From Candidatus Peregrinibacteria bacterium (GTDB taxonomy: Bacteria; Patescibacteriota; Gracilibacteria; Peribacterales; Peribacteraceae), in assembly GCA_030649955.1 (NCBI GenBank), contig JAUSFD010000017.1, forward strand, positions 62,001 through 126,000: a DNA stretch of 64,000 bases. Direction: 5' to 3'. The notes under the pieces were generated by a model. It saw nothing but the letters and a program-made list of their open reading frames with translations, ran no database searches and was not told the DNA's origin. A program made the translations under genes and the position numbers. This document shows, in pieces, positions 47,339 to 55,384 of this stretch. The stretch's first letter is position 1. Each line of letters opens with the position of its first letter.

Positions 47339-48262
47339 TTACCCATTGGATAGCCCCGGTACGTTCTTCGTCAGTATCGCCATGAGGGAATCCAGGTCCT
47401 CGTTCACGACGATGTGATCGAAGAGATCGGAGCGCTCCTTGAAGAAGGCGAGATCGCGCTCCGCGTTCTTCATGCGGTCGCGGATATGCTCCTCTGTATC
47501 GCGGCCGCGTGTGCGCAGGCGGTGGAGCAAGTGACTGAGCATCGTGCGCTTGCTCCTGCCGGGGGGCAGGAGCCCGAAGGAGAGGATCGAGCGGCGGCCG
47601 AAGTGTGACGCCAAGCCCTGGAGCAGGTGCATCTCCGTGATGACGACGGGGAGCTTTCCCTTGTTCCAGATAGCCTCGATGTCGTCCTTGCGGTAGCCGT
47701 AGAACCGCTCCTCGGAGTGCGAGGGGATCTCCGTCATCGCGACGATCTTGCTCTGCTTTCGCAGAGCATCGAATTCATTCTTCGATACGTACACGTACTC
47801 GCCTTCATCGCCCTGCTTTGGGGAGCGCGTCGTGAGGATCGGCACCGGTTCTGTGTACTCCGCAGACATCGTAGCGAGGAGGCGGCTCACGGTGGATTTC
47901 CCTACACCGGAGGGGCCGGTGAGGGCGAGGATGTAGCCCGGGAAAACTCGTTCTTCTTCCTTTGCCACAGGCTTGAGTGCGCTCGCTTCGTAGGCGACTT
48001 CGTACACGCGCAGTCCTTCCTTCGTCGCGTAACTCAAGCGCATTCGCGGGTGCACGTGCATCCCGATCATGGGAGCATCGACAAGCAGCGGGGCGAGAAC
48101 GCGCTTCCCTGAATCGAGGAGGATCATCCCGATCGTGCGCGGCTGCGAGCCAAATTCCTTGAGGGGGTGTGCGAGGAGCGTGAACGATTCAATCGTCCCA
48201 TCCTGGAGGCTCTCCCTCCGCTTCGCCTGCGCGCGCGCGATGATGGGAGGAGTGGCGGTCAT
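47339..48262 (-). CDS. DUF35 OB-fold fused to a guanylate-kinase-like domain
   Basis: Residues about 18-98 match the OB half of DUF35 (LQDGTIESFTLLAHPLKEFG, MILLDSGKRVLAPLLVDAP, MHVHPRMRLSY) without its usual zinc ribbon. Residues 109-303 are a P-loop kinase of the guanylate-kinase group: LTGPSGVGKST at 114-124, TTRSPKQGDEGEYVYVSKNEF, FYGYRKDDIEAIWNKGKLPVV, SFGLLPPGRS, RGRDTEEHIRDRMKNAERDL and HIVVNEDLDSLM. Several GMP-contacting positions differ from canonical Gmk (second Arg of TTRxxR is Lys, Ser after YYG is Tyr, the acidic D-x-D/Q-G loop is TEMHLLQG). It overlaps the thiolase gene by 4 nt. In archaea a DUF35 protein bridges thiolase and HMG-CoA synthase. The kinase might be a Gmk or a missing phosphomevalonate kinase. 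Confidence 0.85.
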   Translation of the reverse strand: MTATPPIIARAQAKRRESLQDGTIESFTLLAHPLKEFGSQPRTIGMILLDSGKRVLAPLLVDAPMIGMHVHPRMRLSYATKEGLRVYEVAYEASALKPVAKEEERVFPGYILALTGPSGVGKSTVSRLLATMSAEYTEPVPILTTRSPKQGDEGEYVYVSKNEFDALRKQSKIVAMTEIPSHSEERFYGYRKDDIEAIWNKGKLPVVITEMHLLQGLASHFGRRSILSFGLLPPGRSKRTMLSHLLHRLRTRGRDTEEHIRDRMKNAERDLAFFKERSDLFDHIVVNEDLDSLMAILTKNVPGLSNG

Positions 48263-49380
48263 GGCATGGAGGCGAGGACGTGGACGCCGCAGGTCGCTCC
48301 CGCGCCGCCGAAGTTGTGGGCGATGCCGTAGCGTTCCTCATGCGCTTGGAGCTGCTTCGCGACATCGATGATCTGCTTGATGCCCGTTGCGGCGACTGGG
48401 TGACCGCACGCTTTGAGACCGCCGCTACGATTGAGGCGCATTGTGCTCTTCCCCTCGTGAATATCTTTGTAGATCCTGATCGCTTCTCCGGGATTCGCGA
48501 ATCCCATGTCCTCCAGGTTGATGAGTGCGGCGATGGAGAAGCAGTCGTGGGTCTCGACAGCGCCAACATCGTCAAGCGATATTTCGGCTTCCCGAAGCGC
48601 TTTCTCACATGCCTCTTTCGTTGCGGGGAAGGAGGTGAGCGACGGACGCTCCGTGATGCTCACGGTGTCGCTCGCCACTTGGGATGCGAGGAGACGCATG
48701 GGGGTCTGGTACTTCGTGGAGAGAATGAGTGCTGCTGCACCATCGCTGATAGGGGAGCAATCGAGGAGGCGAAGGGGATCGGCGATGAGCGGACTCTTGC
48801 TAATCGTTTCCGGGGGAATCGCGGAGCGGAACTGCGCATAGGGGTTCTCCTTTCCGTGCATGTGGTGCACTGCACTCACCAGACTCAGTTCATCGCGCGT
48901 GAGCCCGTACTCGTGCATGTAGCGTCGCGCGATCAGGCCGAAGATCCCGGGGAACGTGATGCCCGAGGGGCGATCGAGTTCCGCGTCTGCCGCAGCCATG
49001 AGCGCAGAAGCGATATCCTCCTGTGAAGCATCCGTCATCTTCTCCACGCCGAGTACGAGGACACTCTGCGCACGGTTACTCTCGAGGAGCGCGCACGCCA
49101 TGTGCACTGCGAGCGACCCCGATCCGCACGCTGCTTCCACACGGAGAGCAGGCGGACGGTGCGGGAGGAGTGCGGAGGCGAGCGTGCCCAAGTGTGCCTG
49201 CGCATTCGTGAACTCCCCGAGCATGTTCGCAACGATTACCGCGTCGATATCGAGTGCGGTCGCTGGCGATGCACTGAGGGCGGAATCGAGTGCCTCTGCC
49301 ATCAGATCTCTGAGGCTCTTGTCCCACCATTCGCCAAAGCGCGTCTGGCCGGAACCGATGAGGGAGATAGCGCGCTGCAA
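48259..49380 (-). CDS. Acetyl-CoA acetyltransferase, archaeal/SCP-x thiolase type
   Basis: The 373-aa thiolase has the nucleophile Cys85 in VEAACGSGSLAVHMAC, the VETHDCFSIAALI motif, GLKACGHPVAATGIKQI and the C-terminal NFGGAGATCGVHVLASM. The wording is that of archaeal acetoacetyl-CoA thiolases rather than bacterial PhaA/AtoB. It condenses two acetyl-CoA at the head of the mevalonate pathway. It lies 1 nt after the HMG-CoA synthase gene and overlaps the DUF35-kinase gene (ATGA), matching the archaeal trio in which acetoacetyl-CoA is channelled. Confidence 0.92.
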   Translation of the reverse strand: MQRAISLIGSGQTRFGEWWDKSLRDLMAEALDSALSASPATALDIDAVIVANMLGEFTNAQAHLGTLASALLPHRPPALRVEAACGSGSLAVHMACALLESNRAQSVLVLGVEKMTDASQEDIASALMAAADAELDRPSGITFPGIFGLIARRYMHEYGLTRDELSLVSAVHHMHGKENPYAQFRSAIPPETISKSPLIADPLRLLDCSPISDGAAALILSTKYQTPMRLLASQVASDTVSITERPSLTSFPATKEACEKALREAEISLDDVGAVETHDCFSIAALINLEDMGFANPGEAIRIYKDIHEGKSTMRLNRSGGLKACGHPVAATGIKQIIDVAKQLQAHEERYGIAHNFGGAGATCGVHVLASMP

Positions 49381-49381
49381 A

Positions 49382-50410
49382 CTACCGGGGAGTCAGGTGG
49401 CAGTGATCGAGGTACTGAGCGTAGCTCACGTAGGTGAGCTCCCGTTCATCCGGGGGGAGGGGACTCCCGGATTGTAGCATGGTGAGGAGGAAGGCGTCTG
49501 CACCTGCTCCGGAGCCGTAGGAGACGAGGAGGACCGTCTCCCCCTTCTTCGCCTCCTCGAGCACGGATGTGAGCCCCAGGAGTGAACATGCACTGTACGT
49601 GTTGCCCACCTTCGGCACGATGAACCCGAGTGCGCACTGCTCCTTGGTGAATCCAAACTCCTTCATGATTGCGGTTGGGAACTTTGCATTCGGCATGTGG
49701 AGGACGACGTGCGCGATGTCCTTCACCTCAAGTTTCGCAGTATCGAGCATCCCGCGGATCGCCGTGCGCACGTGGTGGAAGTATCCGGGCTCTCCCGTAA
49801 ATCGTCCTGCGTGCTGCGGGAATCGTTCGTCCGCTGCGCGCCAGAAATCGGGAGTGTCTGTCGTGAACGATAGTGTCCGCTCGATCCGCGCTAGTGCACC
49901 CTTCGCCTTTTCCGATCCAAGGACAATCGCCGCCGCACCTGCGGCCGCCGAGTACTCGAGTGCATCCCCCGGCTTCGCCTGCGCTGTATCCGTCCCGATG
50001 GCGATCCCGTACTCGATTTGCCCCGCGCGAATGAACGCATCCACGATCTGCATCCCCGCCGTCCCCGCCTTGCATGCGAATTCCAGATCCGCGCAGTGCG
50101 AGAACGGATCGAGCTCCAGTGCCGATGCCAGCATCCCGCTCGTCGGCTTCACCGCGTAGGGGTGACTCTCGGACCCGACGAAGATTGCAGAGATCTGCGA
50201 TGGTCGAATGCCCGCTCCCTCGATCGCCTGTTTCCCCGCCTCGAACGCCATCGTGAAACTGTCCTCATCCCTGTCCGGCACCGTCTTCTCCGTGATGCCG
50301 AGGGAGGATGCGAGTGCTGCAGAATCCTGCTGCCAGTGTTCGGCGATCGCCGAAGTCCGCAGCCGGAAGCGCGGGAGATACCTGCCGAACCCGAGGATTG
50401 CCGACTTCAT
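49382..50410 (-). CDS. Hydroxymethylglutaryl-CoA synthase, archaeal type
   Basis: The 342-aa protein begins AILGFGRYLPRFRL. The catalytic Cys is C113 in LEFACKAGTAGMQIV, the His is in VVLHMPNAKFPTAI (near 238), and the acidic residue lies in VGSESHPYAVKP. GRFTGEPGYFHHV corresponds to the conserved TRGxPAYF block, and GNTYSACSLLGLTSVL follows. It adds acetyl-CoA to acetoacetyl-CoA to give HMG-CoA. It is first in the HMGS-thiolase-DUF35 operon; a TATACT box lies 10 nt before the ATG. Confidence 0.93.
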   Translation of the reverse strand: MKSAILGFGRYLPRFRLRTSAIAEHWQQDSAALASSLGITEKTVPDRDEDSFTMAFEAGKQAIEGAGIRPSQISAIFVGSESHPYAVKPTSGMLASALELDPFSHCADLEFACKAGTAGMQIVDAFIRAGQIEYGIAIGTDTAQAKPGDALEYSAAAGAAAIVLGSEKAKGALARIERTLSFTTDTPDFWRAADERFPQHAGRFTGEPGYFHHVRTAIRGMLDTAKLEVKDIAHVVLHMPNAKFPTAIMKEFGFTKEQCALGFIVPKVGNTYSACSLLGLTSVLEEAKKGETVLLVSYGSGAGADAFLLTMLQSGSPLPPDERELTYVSYAQYLDHCHLTPR

Positions 50411-50884: not shown

Positions 50885-52042
50885 TCACCGCCCCAATTCC
50901 CTATGCGCCTTCGCGAGCGTGTGACTCGCCTGCGCAGCGAGCAGCGAAAGCTCCCCTGCGAGCACTGCAGCACCGATGGACTGCGCAAGTTGGACGACAG
51001 GTTTGAGAGTTGTTTCTGGTGAGAGCAGGAGATTGCGACACTGCTCCTGCGCAGGGAGACCGGTACCACCACCGCGGACACCGACGATCACGGCGGGGAG
51101 GTGCACTCGAATATGCAGAGAGTTTCCGGTAAGTGAAACATCTGTGTCTGCGAGTGATCCCTCTACAACGTGCGCGGCATCCTGGCCTGTTGCGAGATAG
51201 AGCGCTGCGATGATGTTCGCAGCGTGGAGGTTCTTCCCGATTGCACCGGCGAGAGAGGAGCCAATGGTGAGTTTCGCCTCCGCGACATCGAGCATCGCCT
51301 GTGCATCACTCTTGAGAATGGTGCGGAGAATTTCTTCACTGATGTCCGCCTCCGCAGTGACGCGGTACCCGCGACCGTGATCGTGCGTGCGCACACTCGG
51401 TTTCTTATCGCTGTCGACATTCCCTGCGACGGTGACGAAGCGGAGCTCGGGAATCCGCTCCTGGAGCCACTCTCCCAGAGCCTGTCCCGCGATCGTGATC
51501 ATGTTCATCCCCATCGCTTCATCGGTGTCGCAGGCGAGTGTGAGGAAGATGTATCCGTCGCGCTCATCGAGATCGTAACGCAGGAGTTTCAAGTGGCTGC
51601 TCGATCCTTCGACGATCTGCTTCCACTCATTCTCCATGCTTCGGATATTTTCAGAAGGAGATTCTCTTCCATTCACTTTGAACGCGAGAGATCGCGTGAT
51701 GCCGATGTACTCCGAAGACACATGCACTCCGCCGCTCATCCAGAGCGCTTTGCATCCACGGTTCACACTCGCGACGAGCGCGCCTTCCGTTGTAGCGAGT
51801 GGGAGATGAATGTCTGCCTGTGTTGCATCACTGAAGTGAACGGCGAGTGGCCCCGCGTATCCCACCGGAATGGGGACTGCACCAAGCATCTGTTCACAGT
51901 TCTTCTCCTCTGCACTCGCCGTGCGCTCATCGGTGATTGCGAGAGCGCTCAGGTCTGAGCCTGTTTCCTCTTCAATCATGCGTCTCCGCTCTGTACAGCG
52001 TTGAGCAGGGGTGAGGCCGTTGGGGAGAGAGCGCAAATCCAT
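50885..52042 (-). CDS. Hydroxymethylglutaryl-CoA reductase, class I
   Basis: I start at the ATG at 52042 (MDLRSLPNGLTPAQR), giving 385 aa, the size of archaeal/class I catalytic cores; the longer frame begins in repeat DNA. Signatures are EKNCEQMLGAVPIPVGYAGP, LATTEGALVASVNRGCKAL, CDTDEAMGMNMITIA, IGKNLHAANIIAALYLATGQ and GVRGGGTGLPAQEQC. It reduces HMG-CoA to mevalonate with NAD(P)H, the committed step. There is no membrane domain. It is 130 nt after mvaD on the same strand. Confidence 0.94.
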   Translation of the reverse strand: MDLRSLPNGLTPAQRCTERRRMIEEETGSDLSALAITDERTASAEEKNCEQMLGAVPIPVGYAGPLAVHFSDATQADIHLPLATTEGALVASVNRGCKALWMSGGVHVSSEYIGITRSLAFKVNGRESPSENIRSMENEWKQIVEGSSSHLKLLRYDLDERDGYIFLTLACDTDEAMGMNMITIAGQALGEWLQERIPELRFVTVAGNVDSDKKPSVRTHDHGRGYRVTAEADISEEILRTILKSDAQAMLDVAEAKLTIGSSLAGAIGKNLHAANIIAALYLATGQDAAHVVEGSLADTDVSLTGNSLHIRVHLPAVIVGVRGGGTGLPAQEQCRNLLLSPETTLKPVVQLAQSIGAAVLAGELSLLAAQASHTLAKAHRELGR

Positions 52043-52052
52043 GTAAGCAGAA

Positions 52053-52164
52053 ATGTAGAATGCACAATGGACAATGTACAATGGGGAAAGTTCTGGGCGG
52101 TCACTCAACACTCCATTCAATTAATCCTGCATCGTACATTTTACATTGTACATTCTCCATTCAG
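52053..52164. repeat. Stutter hairpin 11 (mvaD-HMG-CoA reductase gap)
   Basis: ACAATGG ACAATGT ACAATGG (period 7) on the left is complemented by GTACATTTTACATTGTACATTCTCCATTC on the right. It fills the gap between mvaD and the HMG-CoA reductase gene. Confidence 0.6.
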
Positions 52165-52172
52165 TATTCGTT

Positions 52173-53183
52173 TCACGTACTCCTCGCACCAGGGCCCGTC
52201 TGTGTCTCAAACACCGTACAGCTCTTCTGCGACCGCGCGTAACCCAGGACCACCAATCGCGCTTCCTCTGTGCAGAAGAGGTGAACAGTCGGGCCGGCAT
52301 CCATCGTGTAGAGGACCGGCAGGTGCTGCCGCTCGCGCATGGCCTTCACCTCCGTGATGATGCGATGCGTGTCCTTCGTGAGGTAATTCAGTGCGGGCGT
52401 ACTCGTCTCCATGACTTTGTGCATGTCGAGCGCATCCTCCTCCGCCACGTGCTGGAGCTTCTCAAAGTCCCGGGCTTTGATCGCATCGATGCACTCGCGC
52501 AGACGGCGGTGCATGATCGCATCGACACGCTCCACGAAGTACGGACTTGTGGAAGCAAGGGCGTGCCCTTCCGTTGATCCAATAGCCTTCTCCTCCTGCG
52601 AGGGGATGATGGCGATGTCGTGGAGAATCCAGTGCTTCTCATCCGCAATCTGCTCTGCATGTGCTGCATCGATGGAGTTCGTTTTCCCCGCTCTCAGAGC
52701 GACGTAGCCACCGTAGATGCTCCGTGCTGCGGAGCCGGAACCGAGGCGCGCCATCACGCTCACCTGCTCATCGGAGAGGGGGAATGCTTCTCCTACCAAT
52801 CCTGCTACCGCGCGCGCGACTCCTGCGAAGACTGCGGCGGAGGAAGCGAGGCCGATCGATGGAGGGATGTGCGAGCGGATCGTGATCGAGAGGGATGCGG
52901 GGAGAACGTCAGAAGGAATGCGGAGCATGTCCAAGTATTGCTTCATGAGCGCGAGGTGGTGCCCGAAGCGGTGGACGTGCTTGTCTGTGAGCGTGCGCTC
53001 GAGCCCACTCTCGAGGTAGGAATACACGACGAGTTCCTTGCTGTGCTCGACCGTCACTTCGACGGAGGGTGTATCGAGCGTCATCGAGAGGGAATCTGCA
53101 GCGGGGAGGCGAAGTTCCTCGCTCTGGTTCCCCCAGTATTTGATGAGCGCAATGTTGGGTGTGGCGATGGCTGTTGCGGGCAT
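52173..53183 (-). CDS. mvaD: Diphosphomevalonate decarboxylase
   Basis: The 336-aa GHMP-fold protein begins ATAIATPNIALIKYWGNQSE, the mvaD signature. ADSLSMTLDTPSVEV, PPSIGLASSAAVFAGVARAV (phosphate loop), RLGSGSAARSIYGGYVAL and LYTMDAGPTVHLFC are typical. It converts diphosphomevalonate to IPP. A decarboxylase acting on phosphomevalonate, as known from some archaea and Chloroflexi, cannot be excluded by eye. The next gene upstream is mevalonate kinase, across a 136-bp gap with a hairpin. Confidence 0.9.
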   Translation of the reverse strand: MPATAIATPNIALIKYWGNQSEELRLPAADSLSMTLDTPSVEVTVEHSKELVVYSYLESGLERTLTDKHVHRFGHHLALMKQYLDMLRIPSDVLPASLSITIRSHIPPSIGLASSAAVFAGVARAVAGLVGEAFPLSDEQVSVMARLGSGSAARSIYGGYVALRAGKTNSIDAAHAEQIADEKHWILHDIAIIPSQEEKAIGSTEGHALASTSPYFVERVDAIMHRRLRECIDAIKARDFEKLQHVAEEDALDMHKVMETSTPALNYLTKDTHRIITEVKAMRERQHLPVLYTMDAGPTVHLFCTEEARLVVLGYARSQKSCTVFETQTGPGARST

Positions 53184-53319: not shown

Positions 53320-54168
53320 TCAGAGTGGGAAAGTTGGCCACCCGCGTTCCTCAGCGAGACGTTCGAGGAGTGCATGATCATCGTGGACAGCGATCACTAT
53401 ACCTCCTCCGCCGGAGCGACCGCCCGCACCCGTGATCTTCGCGGCTCCGCCCTGCGCTTCCACAGCAGCAACGAACTCTTGCACGTTCTCCGGTACCACA
53501 CCGAGCGCTATCTGTGCACGATGATGATCACGGAAGACTGCGAGGGGATTCTCTTTAGCGAGAATGCGGTCTGCGCACGATCCGATCGTCGTGAGCGGTT
53601 TCTTCAGTTCTGCCTCCCGTGACCGAACCCATTTCACGAGCTCTGCGGTGGTCTCTCCCGGTGCACCCGTATCGATCAGAAGGGCTCGGTCCAGAATCGT
53701 CCGAGGGATCTGGATAGGCTGTGCAGGTTTCCCGCGTTCGTACCGGATCGGTTGCGCGTTCCAGATGACCGTGAAATCCATGCCGCTGTGTCCCGGATTC
53801 ACGTGATCCTCGATAGCGAGTGCGTCGTCCAAGCACTTTTCTCCGAGCAAGCAGCGTGCAATGGCGATGACGAGCGCAGTTGAGGAACCCATCCCCTTCC
53901 CGAGCGGGAGATCGGATTCAACAGTGAGTGTGCCACAGACAGGCTTTCTCTTCTCCTCGCAGAGTCGAACAATCGTGAGGGCAAACTGCTCTTTCTGCGT
54001 GTCTTGCTCCGCGCCTTCTCGCTGGATCGTGAGCGTCCTCCCACCATCCTCATTGCACGTCACTCGCACTCCTTGTTTCGATGGCAGCGCGAGACCCGGA
54101 GAGCCGAAGACCATCGCATACTCCCCAGCTAGGACGATTTTGCCGCTTGCAGAAGCCACGTTCCTCAT
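53320..54168 (-). CDS. mvk: Mevalonate kinase
   Basis: The 282-aa GHMP kinase begins ASASGKIVLAGEYAMVFGSP. The phosphate-binding motif is DLPLGKGMGSSTALVIAIAR, NPGHSGMDFTVIWNA carries the catalytic Asp region, and the C-terminal motif is KITGAGGRSGGGGIVIAV. The SGMDFTV wording fits mevalonate kinase rather than phosphomevalonate kinase. It overlaps uppS by 4 nt (ATGA) and forms an idi-uppS-mvk operon. Confidence 0.9.
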   Translation of the reverse strand: MRNVASASGKIVLAGEYAMVFGSPGLALPSKQGVRVTCNEDGGRTLTIQREGAEQDTQKEQFALTIVRLCEEKRKPVCGTLTVESDLPLGKGMGSSTALVIAIARCLLGEKCLDDALAIEDHVNPGHSGMDFTVIWNAQPIRYERGKPAQPIQIPRTILDRALLIDTGAPGETTAELVKWVRSREAELKKPLTTIGSCADRILAKENPLAVFRDHHRAQIALGVVPENVQEFVAAVEAQGGAAKITGAGGRSGGGGIVIAVHDDHALLERLAEERGWPTFPL

Positions 54169-54842
54169 GCCCCGAATCTGCGGGTACGCCGGTTGAACTC
54201 CGTGAGTGCGCTCTCCAAATCTGAAACCGTGAGATCCGGGAAGAACTTATCGAGGAAGATCCACTCCGCGTACGCGCTCTGCCACAGTGCGAAGTTACTG
54301 GTGCGCTGCTCTCCGGAAGTCCGCAGCACGAGATCGATGTCCGGGAGCTCCGGGTGATCCAACTGCGAGCGTAATTTTTCATCGGTGAGATTGGCGCAGT
54401 CTCCGATCTTCCGTACCGCGCGTAGCACCTCGTCCTTCCCTCCATAATCGATCGCGAGGTGGAGGGTGAAGTCGCTGTACGCTTGCGATTCCTCACACAC
54501 CTCCTTTATGAGTGATGCGAGTGACCCGGGAATCCGATCCGTCCGTCCCGAGTGCGCCAATCGTGTCTTCTTCTCCTGCATCTTCGGGCGCTCTCGCTGG
54601 ATGTACTCCTCTAGTAATGCCATCAGCTTCGCGATTTCCTCCGGATCCCGATTCCAGTTCTCCGTCGAGAAGCACCACACGGTGAGAGTCGAAATCCGCG
54701 GATTCGTCCGGCACCACTCCGTGATCTCCCGGAAGTTCTCGATCGCTTTCTCGTGCCCGTTCCACGGCAGCAGGAGCCGCTGCTTCGCCCACCGGCGGTT
54801 ACCATCGGGGATGATCGCCAAGTGGATCGGCTTCTCGCTCAT
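54165..54842 (-). CDS. uppS: Isoprenyl transferase (undecaprenyl diphosphate synthase)
   Basis: The ATG at 54842 gives 225 aa beginning SEKPIHLAIIPDGNRRWAKQ. Asp in IPDGNRRWA binds the diphosphate, and LTVWCFSTENWNRDPEEI, HLAIDYGGKDEVLRA and DIDLVLRTSGEQRTSNFALW are the other family blocks, ending SAYAEWIFLDKFFPDLT. It extends FPP with IPP to a C55-type cis-prenyl carrier for peptidoglycan and other glycans. It overlaps idi (ATGA) and mvk (ATGA), so all three are translationally coupled. Confidence 0.95.
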   Translation of the reverse strand: MSEKPIHLAIIPDGNRRWAKQRLLLPWNGHEKAIENFREITEWCRTNPRISTLTVWCFSTENWNRDPEEIAKLMALLEEYIQRERPKMQEKKTRLAHSGRTDRIPGSLASLIKEVCEESQAYSDFTLHLAIDYGGKDEVLRAVRKIGDCANLTDEKLRSQLDHPELPDIDLVLRTSGEQRTSNFALWQSAYAEWIFLDKFFPDLTVSDLESALTEFNRRTRRFGA

Positions 54843-55384
54843 CGTTCGGAGAGAATAGTAGGGAGAGGAGTCGTGAGGAGCTGACGCAGACCGAGGTGGA
54901 ACCACGGAGCGTACGCATCTTTGTTCTCCTTCATATCTGTGATGAGCATCGGAACGTCGACCCACTTCCACTCAGCGACTTCCTCCGCATTTGGACTGAT
55001 CGAAGTCGATTGCGGGATCTTCCCGACGAGGAGTGTCACGTGCTCGTGCTCCACTCCCTTTCCCTCTGGATCCTCTGCGCGGTACACAAACGTTCCCGCT
55101 TCGGTGAGTGCACAGGAAAATCCGAGTTCCTCCTGGAGTCTGCGAGCACCCGCTGTCTGTGCATCCTCATTCTCGAACGGGTGACTGCAGCACGTATTTG
55201 CCCAGAACATTGCGAAGAGCATCTTCTCCCGAGCTCTCTGCTGAATGAGGAGGGACTCGCCATCGTCGCTGAACACGTACACAGAGAATGCGCGGTGGAG
55301 TTTCCCTTCACCTGTATGCGCCTCGAGGAGATCCGCCGAACCGATGGGCGTGTTCCGCTCGTCGACGAGGGTGACGGTGCGCAT
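54839..55384 (-). CDS. idi: Isopentenyl-diphosphate delta-isomerase, type I
   Basis: The 181-aa Nudix-like IDI-1 has LHRAFSVYVFSDDGESLLIQ, the metal/catalytic Cys motif WANTCCSHPFENE, ARRLQEELGFSC (Nudix-type Glu helix) and GVEHEHVTLLVG with the catalytic Glu. It interconverts IPP and DMAPP. Type I is common in eukaryotes and some bacteria. It is first in the idi-uppS-mvk operon. Confidence 0.94.
   Translation of the reverse strand: MRTVTLVDERNTPIGSADLLEAHTGEGKLHRAFSVYVFSDDGESLLIQQRAREKMLFAMFWANTCCSHPFENEDAQTAGARRLQEELGFSCALTEAGTFVYRAEDPEGKGVEHEHVTLLVGKIPQSTSISPNAEEVAEWKWVDVPMLITDMKENKDAYAPWFHLGLRQLLTTPLPTILSER

Follow-up and report, generated by a model that had tools for sequence, protein, structure and literature searches.

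The mevalonate cluster and the DUF35-kinase fusion

The window (the whole stretch of DNA analysed, 64,000 nt from a Candidatus Peregrinibacteria bacterium of the family Peribacteraceae) carries a minus-strand cluster of mevalonate pathway genes in the order isopentenyl-diphosphate isomerase (IDI), polyprenyl diphosphate synthase (UppS), mevalonate kinase (MK), a mevalonate-phosphate decarboxylase homologue (MVD), HMG-CoA reductase (HMGR), HMG-CoA synthase (HMGS), thiolase and, last, a gene in which a DUF35 domain is fused to a domain of the guanylate kinase (gmk) fold. The fusion is proposed to be a phosphomevalonate kinase (PMK). The features, from the start of the cluster to its end, are:

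54839–55384, minus strand: isopentenyl-diphosphate isomerase, type 1 (NF002995 and TIGR02150 above cut-off)
54165–54971, minus strand: polyprenyl (undecaprenyl) diphosphate synthase UppS (TIGR00055 above cut-off)
53320–54168, minus strand: GHMP mevalonate kinase, MK1 clade (TIGR00549, 93 bits; in a clade with other Patescibacteria MKs, support 100/99)
52173–53183, minus strand: mevalonate-phosphate decarboxylase homologue, MVD of the 'W' type, with Asn at the position of MDD Lys21 (TIGR01240, 187 bits, cut-off 171)
50885–52120, minus strand: HMG-CoA reductase (ORF; true start probably internal; PF00368, E 1.7e-92)
49382–50410, minus strand: HMG-CoA synthase, archaeal type (NF003274 and TIGR00748 above cut-off)
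48259–49380, minus strand: thiolase, acetoacetyl-CoA type (PF00108/PF22691; NF004720, 379 bits)
47339–48262, minus strand: fusion of a DUF35 OB-fold and a guanylate-kinase fold, 307 aa, proposed phosphomevalonate kinase (ORF, Pfam, AlphaFold2, gmk structure match)
48041–48205, minus strand: DUF35 OB-fold of the fusion, residues 20–74, without zinc ribbon (PF01796, 30.7 bits, cut-off 27.1)
47342–47947, minus strand: guanylate-kinase-fold domain of the fusion, residues 106–307 (PF00625, E 2.7e-15; TIGR03263; fold match)
47894–47917, minus strand: P-loop GPSGVGKS, residues 116–123 (Lys122 kept in 54 of 54 PMK-less fusion genomes)

The fusion ORF begins with an ATG at 48262 and stops at 47339, its start overlapping the thiolase stop (48259) by 4 nt. 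The earlier note had placed at 47339–48262 a single gene with an OB-fold DUF35 domain and a P-loop kinase domain, overlapping the thiolase gene by 4 nt; the ORF and Pfam bear this out, on the minus strand, and the motifs that it quoted (TTRSPK, FYGY and TEMHLLQG) are present. Pfam placed OB_ChsH2_C/DUF35 at residues 20–74 and Guanylate_kin at residues 113–298, and found no GHMP domain in the protein and, among families up to E 0.01, no match to the animal-type PMK family PF04275. Orthologues sharing 43–64% identity keep the same site after thiolase across the family, so the fusion is no chance ORF.

An AlphaFold2 model built from an alignment of 25 orthologues had a mean pLDDT of 88, and its kinase half (residues 106–307) matches GMP-bound guanylate kinase structures with a Z of about 25. 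The Foldseek/VIA matches listed were all gmk-type enzymes or more remote P-loop proteins; animal PMK was absent among them, an absence that proves nothing. Against the gmk equivalog TIGR03263 the fusion scored 82.1 bits, below the cut-off of 160.45. Taken alone this is a weak feature, since the canonical gmk of the same genome also falls short (130 against 160.45).

In archaea, a DUF35 protein is a scaffold subunit of the thiolase/HMGS complex (PDB 6et9, Voegeli 2018; via PMC6996347), and all DUF35 structures known in 2019 bind zinc (PMC6996347). The fusion resembles the archaeal subunit in its OB-fold and in the position of its gene beside those of thiolase and HMGS, but differs in the added C-terminal kinase and in the missing zinc ribbon, there being no Cys pairs in residues 1–40. 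The stand-alone DUF35 proteins of other Patescibacteria are likewise without a zinc ribbon.

The phosphomevalonate kinase step and the occurrence of the fusion

The genes of Peribacteria were known as far as mevalonate-5-phosphate and again from mevalonate-5-diphosphate onwards, and the pathway was described as "near-complete" (Anantharaman et al. 2016, PMC4736985). The gap recorded then is precisely the PMK step that is missing here. The genome containing the window (1.67 Mb, 98.6% complete) was searched with family models. Its only GHMP proteins are the MK-like protein and MVD (PF00288), with no GHMP PMK found in this 98.6%-complete assembly. The AA_kinase search returned two proteins, ProB (beside proC) and PyrH (beside frr), and since these are the only ones, the genome has no isopentenyl phosphate kinase (IPK) of the known, AA-kinase-fold type; an IPK of that type elsewhere in the genome was rejected on these neighbours. 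A separate, canonical gmk (L001; motifs TTRVRRPGE, YGT and EVDVQG) does lie elsewhere, and the possibility that the fusion is the genome's own gmk was therefore rejected. The earlier note had called the fusion the only unassigned kinase of the mevalonate region and had seen no PMK in the window. Both statements hold and can be extended to the whole genome, and of the genes that it proposed to look for, the canonical gmk was found and an ERG8-type GHMP kinase or IPK was not (PF00288 and AA_kinase searches).

With the fusion itself as query, a separate gmk-like match was found in 27 of 30 fusion-bearing relatives, and 22 PMK-less fusion genomes each have a single AA_kinase, mostly PyrH-sized (the proteins were not individually identified). 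Alternative mevalonate pathways that use a phosphomevalonate decarboxylase (MPD) and IPK (PMC3857490) also do without a GHMP PMK, but the genome of the window lacks their AA-kinase-type IPK.

Within the family, the fusion was found in 64 of 74 genomes and HMGR in 62 of 74. Co-occurrence with the mevalonate genes, which the earlier note had proposed as a check, was seen: HMGR is present in 62 of the 64 fusion genomes and in 0 of the 10 without the fusion. One of these ten, G433 (75% complete), retains MVD without HMGR. The two fusion genomes without HMGR are G013, where just the kinase half is present and GHMP proteins are absent, and G442, which has MVD and no reductase match. The fusion directly follows thiolase in relatives that carry both on one contig. 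All 14 strong matches in a sample of 380 genomes of the phylum fell in the window's own family, and a scan of 84,980 genomes with an alignment of 25 sequences gave six fusion-type loci, five titled Peribacteria or Peregrinibacteria and one Kaiserbacteria; the remaining matches were ordinary gmk relatives (25–34% identity).

The G013 copy (L055:9001-9756, G013:C1, minus strand) is a kinase domain lacking DUF35 and located among ribosomal-protein genes and secY, in a genome (99% complete) in which HMGR and GHMP proteins were not found. It keeps Tyr156, Arg186 and Tyr188, while Arg239 is replaced by Asp and Arg250 by Cys. Besides the full gene, G002 (L042:8107-8241) and G014 (G014:C31:9822-9935) have short fragments matching the kinase C-terminus (residues about 262–307), located downstream of it or elsewhere, which look like remnants of a partial duplication.

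Acceptor-site residues and decay of the kinase half

Residues were surveyed in 54 fusion genomes that have the pathway and lack a PMK, with positions mapped by pairwise alignment with yeast gmk. In the yeast enzyme, S34, E69, S80 and D98 are taken here to be the guanine contacts, and R38, R41, Y50 and Y78 the contacts to the acceptor phosphate. All four guanine contacts are replaced in the fusion: S34 by Ile142 (54/54), E69 by Ala, Ser or Thr at 175, S80 by Tyr190 (54/54) and D98 by Ile, Val or Thr at 208. The acceptor-phosphate positions are largely kept, with Arg146 for R38 (53/54), Tyr156 for Y50 (54/54) and Tyr188 for Y78 (54/54); R41 is replaced by Lys149 in 46 of 54. The P-loop and the lid arginines are invariant in these genomes, Lys122 being present in every one. 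Two inserts absent from gmk each carry an invariant arginine: Arg186 lies in an insert of about 4 residues before Y188-G-Y190, and Arg239 in an extra basic loop, PPG(K/R)S(K/R)R. These arginines might hold the carboxylate, which is an inference.

Compared with Gmk (TIGR03263/PF00625), the fusion shares the fold, the P-loop, the lid arginines and the equivalents of R38, Y50 and Y78, and departs from it in the replaced guanine contacts, the Arg186 insert, the Arg239 loop and a score of half the equivalog cut-off. Judged from these residues, it seems to be a functional kinase whose acceptor is phosphorylated but is not a guanine nucleotide, its activity being inferred.

Nine genomes of the family carry an extra GHMP kinase, which was assigned as PMK. 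NCBIfam labels it a mevalonate kinase (5/9 genomes scanned), a label overturned by gene order and tree; since NCBIfam alone would make it a mevalonate kinase, the evidence for PMK is the tree, a motif and the gene order. The tree was referenced to MK and PMK from Enterococcus, Staphylococcus, Limosilactobacillus and Streptomyces, and to MK from Natrinema. The extra kinase clusters with the reference PMKs at moderate support (84/88) and has the common motif QGxGS-D-AA. Its scores against solved structures are ambiguous on their own. Eight Patescibacteria outside the family have thiolase, a stand-alone DUF35 (about 100 aa), MK, a PMK-like GHMP kinase and MVD as separate genes, in most cases in the order HMGR-HMGS-thiolase-DUF35-MK-GHMP-MVD.

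Where this PMK is present, the kinase half of the fusion is mostly degraded. Tyr156 is lost in 8 of the 9 PMK genomes (replaced by V, T, T, H, H, L, L and E) versus 0 of the 54 others (Fisher p 2.7e-9, phylogeny ignored), so that the acceptor site has decayed as a PMK role of the fusion would lead one to expect. The eight copies mostly also lack Tyr188, Arg186, Arg254 and Arg263, and in G424 and G425 the P-loop lysine is changed to Arg. Changes affect 8–15 of the 62 conserved kinase positions in these copies, versus 0–1 of the 10 conserved DUF35 positions; the leave-one-out maximum for kinase change in PMK-less genomes was 6.5%. G026 is the only family genome with both a GHMP PMK and an intact fusion.

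Mapped on the thiolase tree, the presence of PMK takes 5 changes, of which well-supported branches force at least 4, and decay takes 4. The independent contrasts (n = 4) gave three as expected, none opposite and one neutral, and the sign test on independent pairs remains at p = 0.25 because there are too few independent events. The kinase half appears to have decayed while DUF35 persisted in about three independent lineages, a pattern that favours the PMK reading. The simplest reading would be that the fusion and the GHMP PMK perform the same step, with DUF35 still needed for thiolase/HMGS.

Proposed role and alternative functions

The fusion fills the PMK position of a pathway that is complete in its other steps: PMK and known IPK are absent, it co-occurs with the pathway, and its decay is coupled to the presence of a GHMP PMK. 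It is probably the phosphomevalonate kinase of the Peribacteria, with substrate and activity both inferred and no biochemistry at hand. In the proposed route, thiolase, HMGS, HMGR and the GHMP MK (53320–54168) would lead to the fusion at the PMK step, followed by MVD and IDI. A gmk-type domain that kept its P-loop, catalytic arginines and acceptor-phosphate tyrosines and lost its guanine-binding residues would phosphorylate mevalonate-5-phosphate to mevalonate-5-diphosphate. The DUF35 half would be a scaffold or CoA-site subunit of a thiolase/HMG-CoA synthase complex, through which the kinase would sit at the head of the pathway; physical association with thiolase and HMGS is inferred. That the fusion brings the kinase to this scaffold is plausible by analogy with the archaeal complex, and such a placement might give channelling, co-regulation or no more than co-expression.

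The precedent is animal-type PMVK (PF04275), a P-loop NMP-kinase-type enzyme that carries out the PMK step. The fusion is likewise a P-loop kinase, but without a PF04275 match, and would have been recruited independently, out of the gmk branch. The GHMP PMKs (ERG8/MvaK2, TIGR01219/TIGR01220) share the proposed reaction and have an unrelated fold, and are absent from the genome of the window. It seems likely that the fusion is a third, independent solution to the PMK step, recruited from guanylate kinase, fused to a scaffold domain, in use across a family of tiny, uncultured CPR bacteria and repeatedly decayed where a GHMP PMK is present. The reaction and the folds are known and the combination is new. 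The earlier note knew of no description of this architecture, and none of a guanylate-kinase-type PMK or of a DUF35-kinase fusion was found in the open-access papers searched (subscription papers were mostly outside the scope). Its reading of the gene as a candidate PMK is supported by the separate gmk, the absence of ERG8 and IPK, the co-occurrence and the decay in 8 of 9 genomes, with the substrate unproven.

If correct, this would fill the mevalonate gap recorded for Peribacteria in 2016, and a non-homologous PMK would come from a protein family that had been taken to be specific for nucleotides. In routine annotation such a gene is likely to be named 'guanylate kinase', with the result that the pathway is marked as broken. 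One bacterial family would contain active, redundant and decayed copies, a natural experiment in enzyme replacement, and for mevalonate-pathway engineering the covalent joining of a kinase to the thiolase/HMGS scaffold would offer a new layout. Counting against the PMK role, besides the lack of biochemistry, the small number of independent contrasts and the moderate support for placing the extra GHMP kinase with PMKs, are the Asn21/Arg27 pair of the W-type decarboxylase, the presence of both kinases in G026, and the kinase of G013 in a genome where no mevalonate genes were found.

The decarboxylase residues lead to the alternative that survives best, in which the fusion would be a new-fold isopentenyl phosphate kinase, acting after MK and a W-type MVD that serves as phosphomevalonate decarboxylase. 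At six diagnostic positions, mevalonate diphosphate decarboxylases (MDD) have Tyr18, Lys21, x27, Ser139, Ser141 and Ser192, and MPDs have Tyr/Phe, Leu/Met/Tyr, Arg/Thr, Ala/Ser, Ser and Thr/polar (Dellas 2013, Table 4, PMC3857490). The W-type decarboxylase has Tyr, Asn, Arg, Ser, Ser and Ser, and Asn21 with Arg27, found in every W-type sequence aligned, lies near the haloarchaeal MPD row (PMC3857490). The retained phosphate-binding residues and more hydrophobic pocket of the fusion would also suit isopentenyl phosphate. All nine PMK genomes carry the other MVD type and none the W-type, and gain of a PMK and an MDD would make the old decarboxylase and the fusion redundant together. However, PMK and its MVD adjoin in other Patescibacteria, so that their joint transfer needs no functional coupling, and position 27 is uninformative because other Patescibacteria with PMK also have Arg27. 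The W-type also keeps Ser139, Ser141 and Ser192, as MDDs do, and passes the TIGR01240 cut-off. G023 and G436 have an MVD of the MDD pattern (Lys21/Asn27), an intact fusion and no PMK; they could not make IPP if the fusion were an IPK and can if it is a PMK, which counts against the IPK role. The missing Lys21 is, as far as sequence comparison can tell, a real hint in the IPK direction, and with a partner decarboxylase that lacks the MDD lysine this role remains possible. A gmk-fold IPK working with a W-type phosphomevalonate decarboxylase is unlikely, then, and not excluded.

A more doubtful alternative is that the fusion is no pathway enzyme and is a second guanylate or nucleotide kinase, or a sensor tuning thiolase/HMGS by nucleotide or energy state. 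Its fold and sequence are gmk-like and joined to a scaffold domain, and the gmk-like domains of MAGUK proteins are non-enzymatic. Yet all 4 guanine contacts are replaced while there is no change in the P-loop, the lid arginines or the acceptor tyrosines, a canonical gmk is already present, and a regulator would not predict decay alongside a GHMP PMK. Least credible of all is an exchange of roles, with the fusion as mevalonate kinase and the cluster GHMP kinase as PMK: the latter has AGEYA, as in Gram-positive PMKs, instead of GEHAVVYG and falls under the TIGR00549 cut-off, but it groups with Patescibacteria MKs (100/99), has their SG-D motif and matches only MK structures by sequence, and an acceptor-phosphate site of the gmk type would be hard to explain if the substrate were unphosphorylated mevalonate.

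The decarboxylases of these genomes vary in further respects. In the W-type, Asn occupies the position at which MDDs have a lysine binding the terminal phosphate; the decarboxylases of other Patescibacteria have Lys or Arg here. The genes of G023 (G023:C32:22797-23807, L259) and G436 (G436:C52:310-1311, L260) represent a third subtype, in which the YMGK motif is followed by an insert of 8 residues; its presence in two distant members of different genera suggests transfer of a single pathway gene. The ALT-type decarboxylases (L056:870-1838 and others) mostly have Asn at the position of the catalytic Asp283, and a D-to-N mutant of the Saccharolobus enzyme was reported to be active (PMC9254496).
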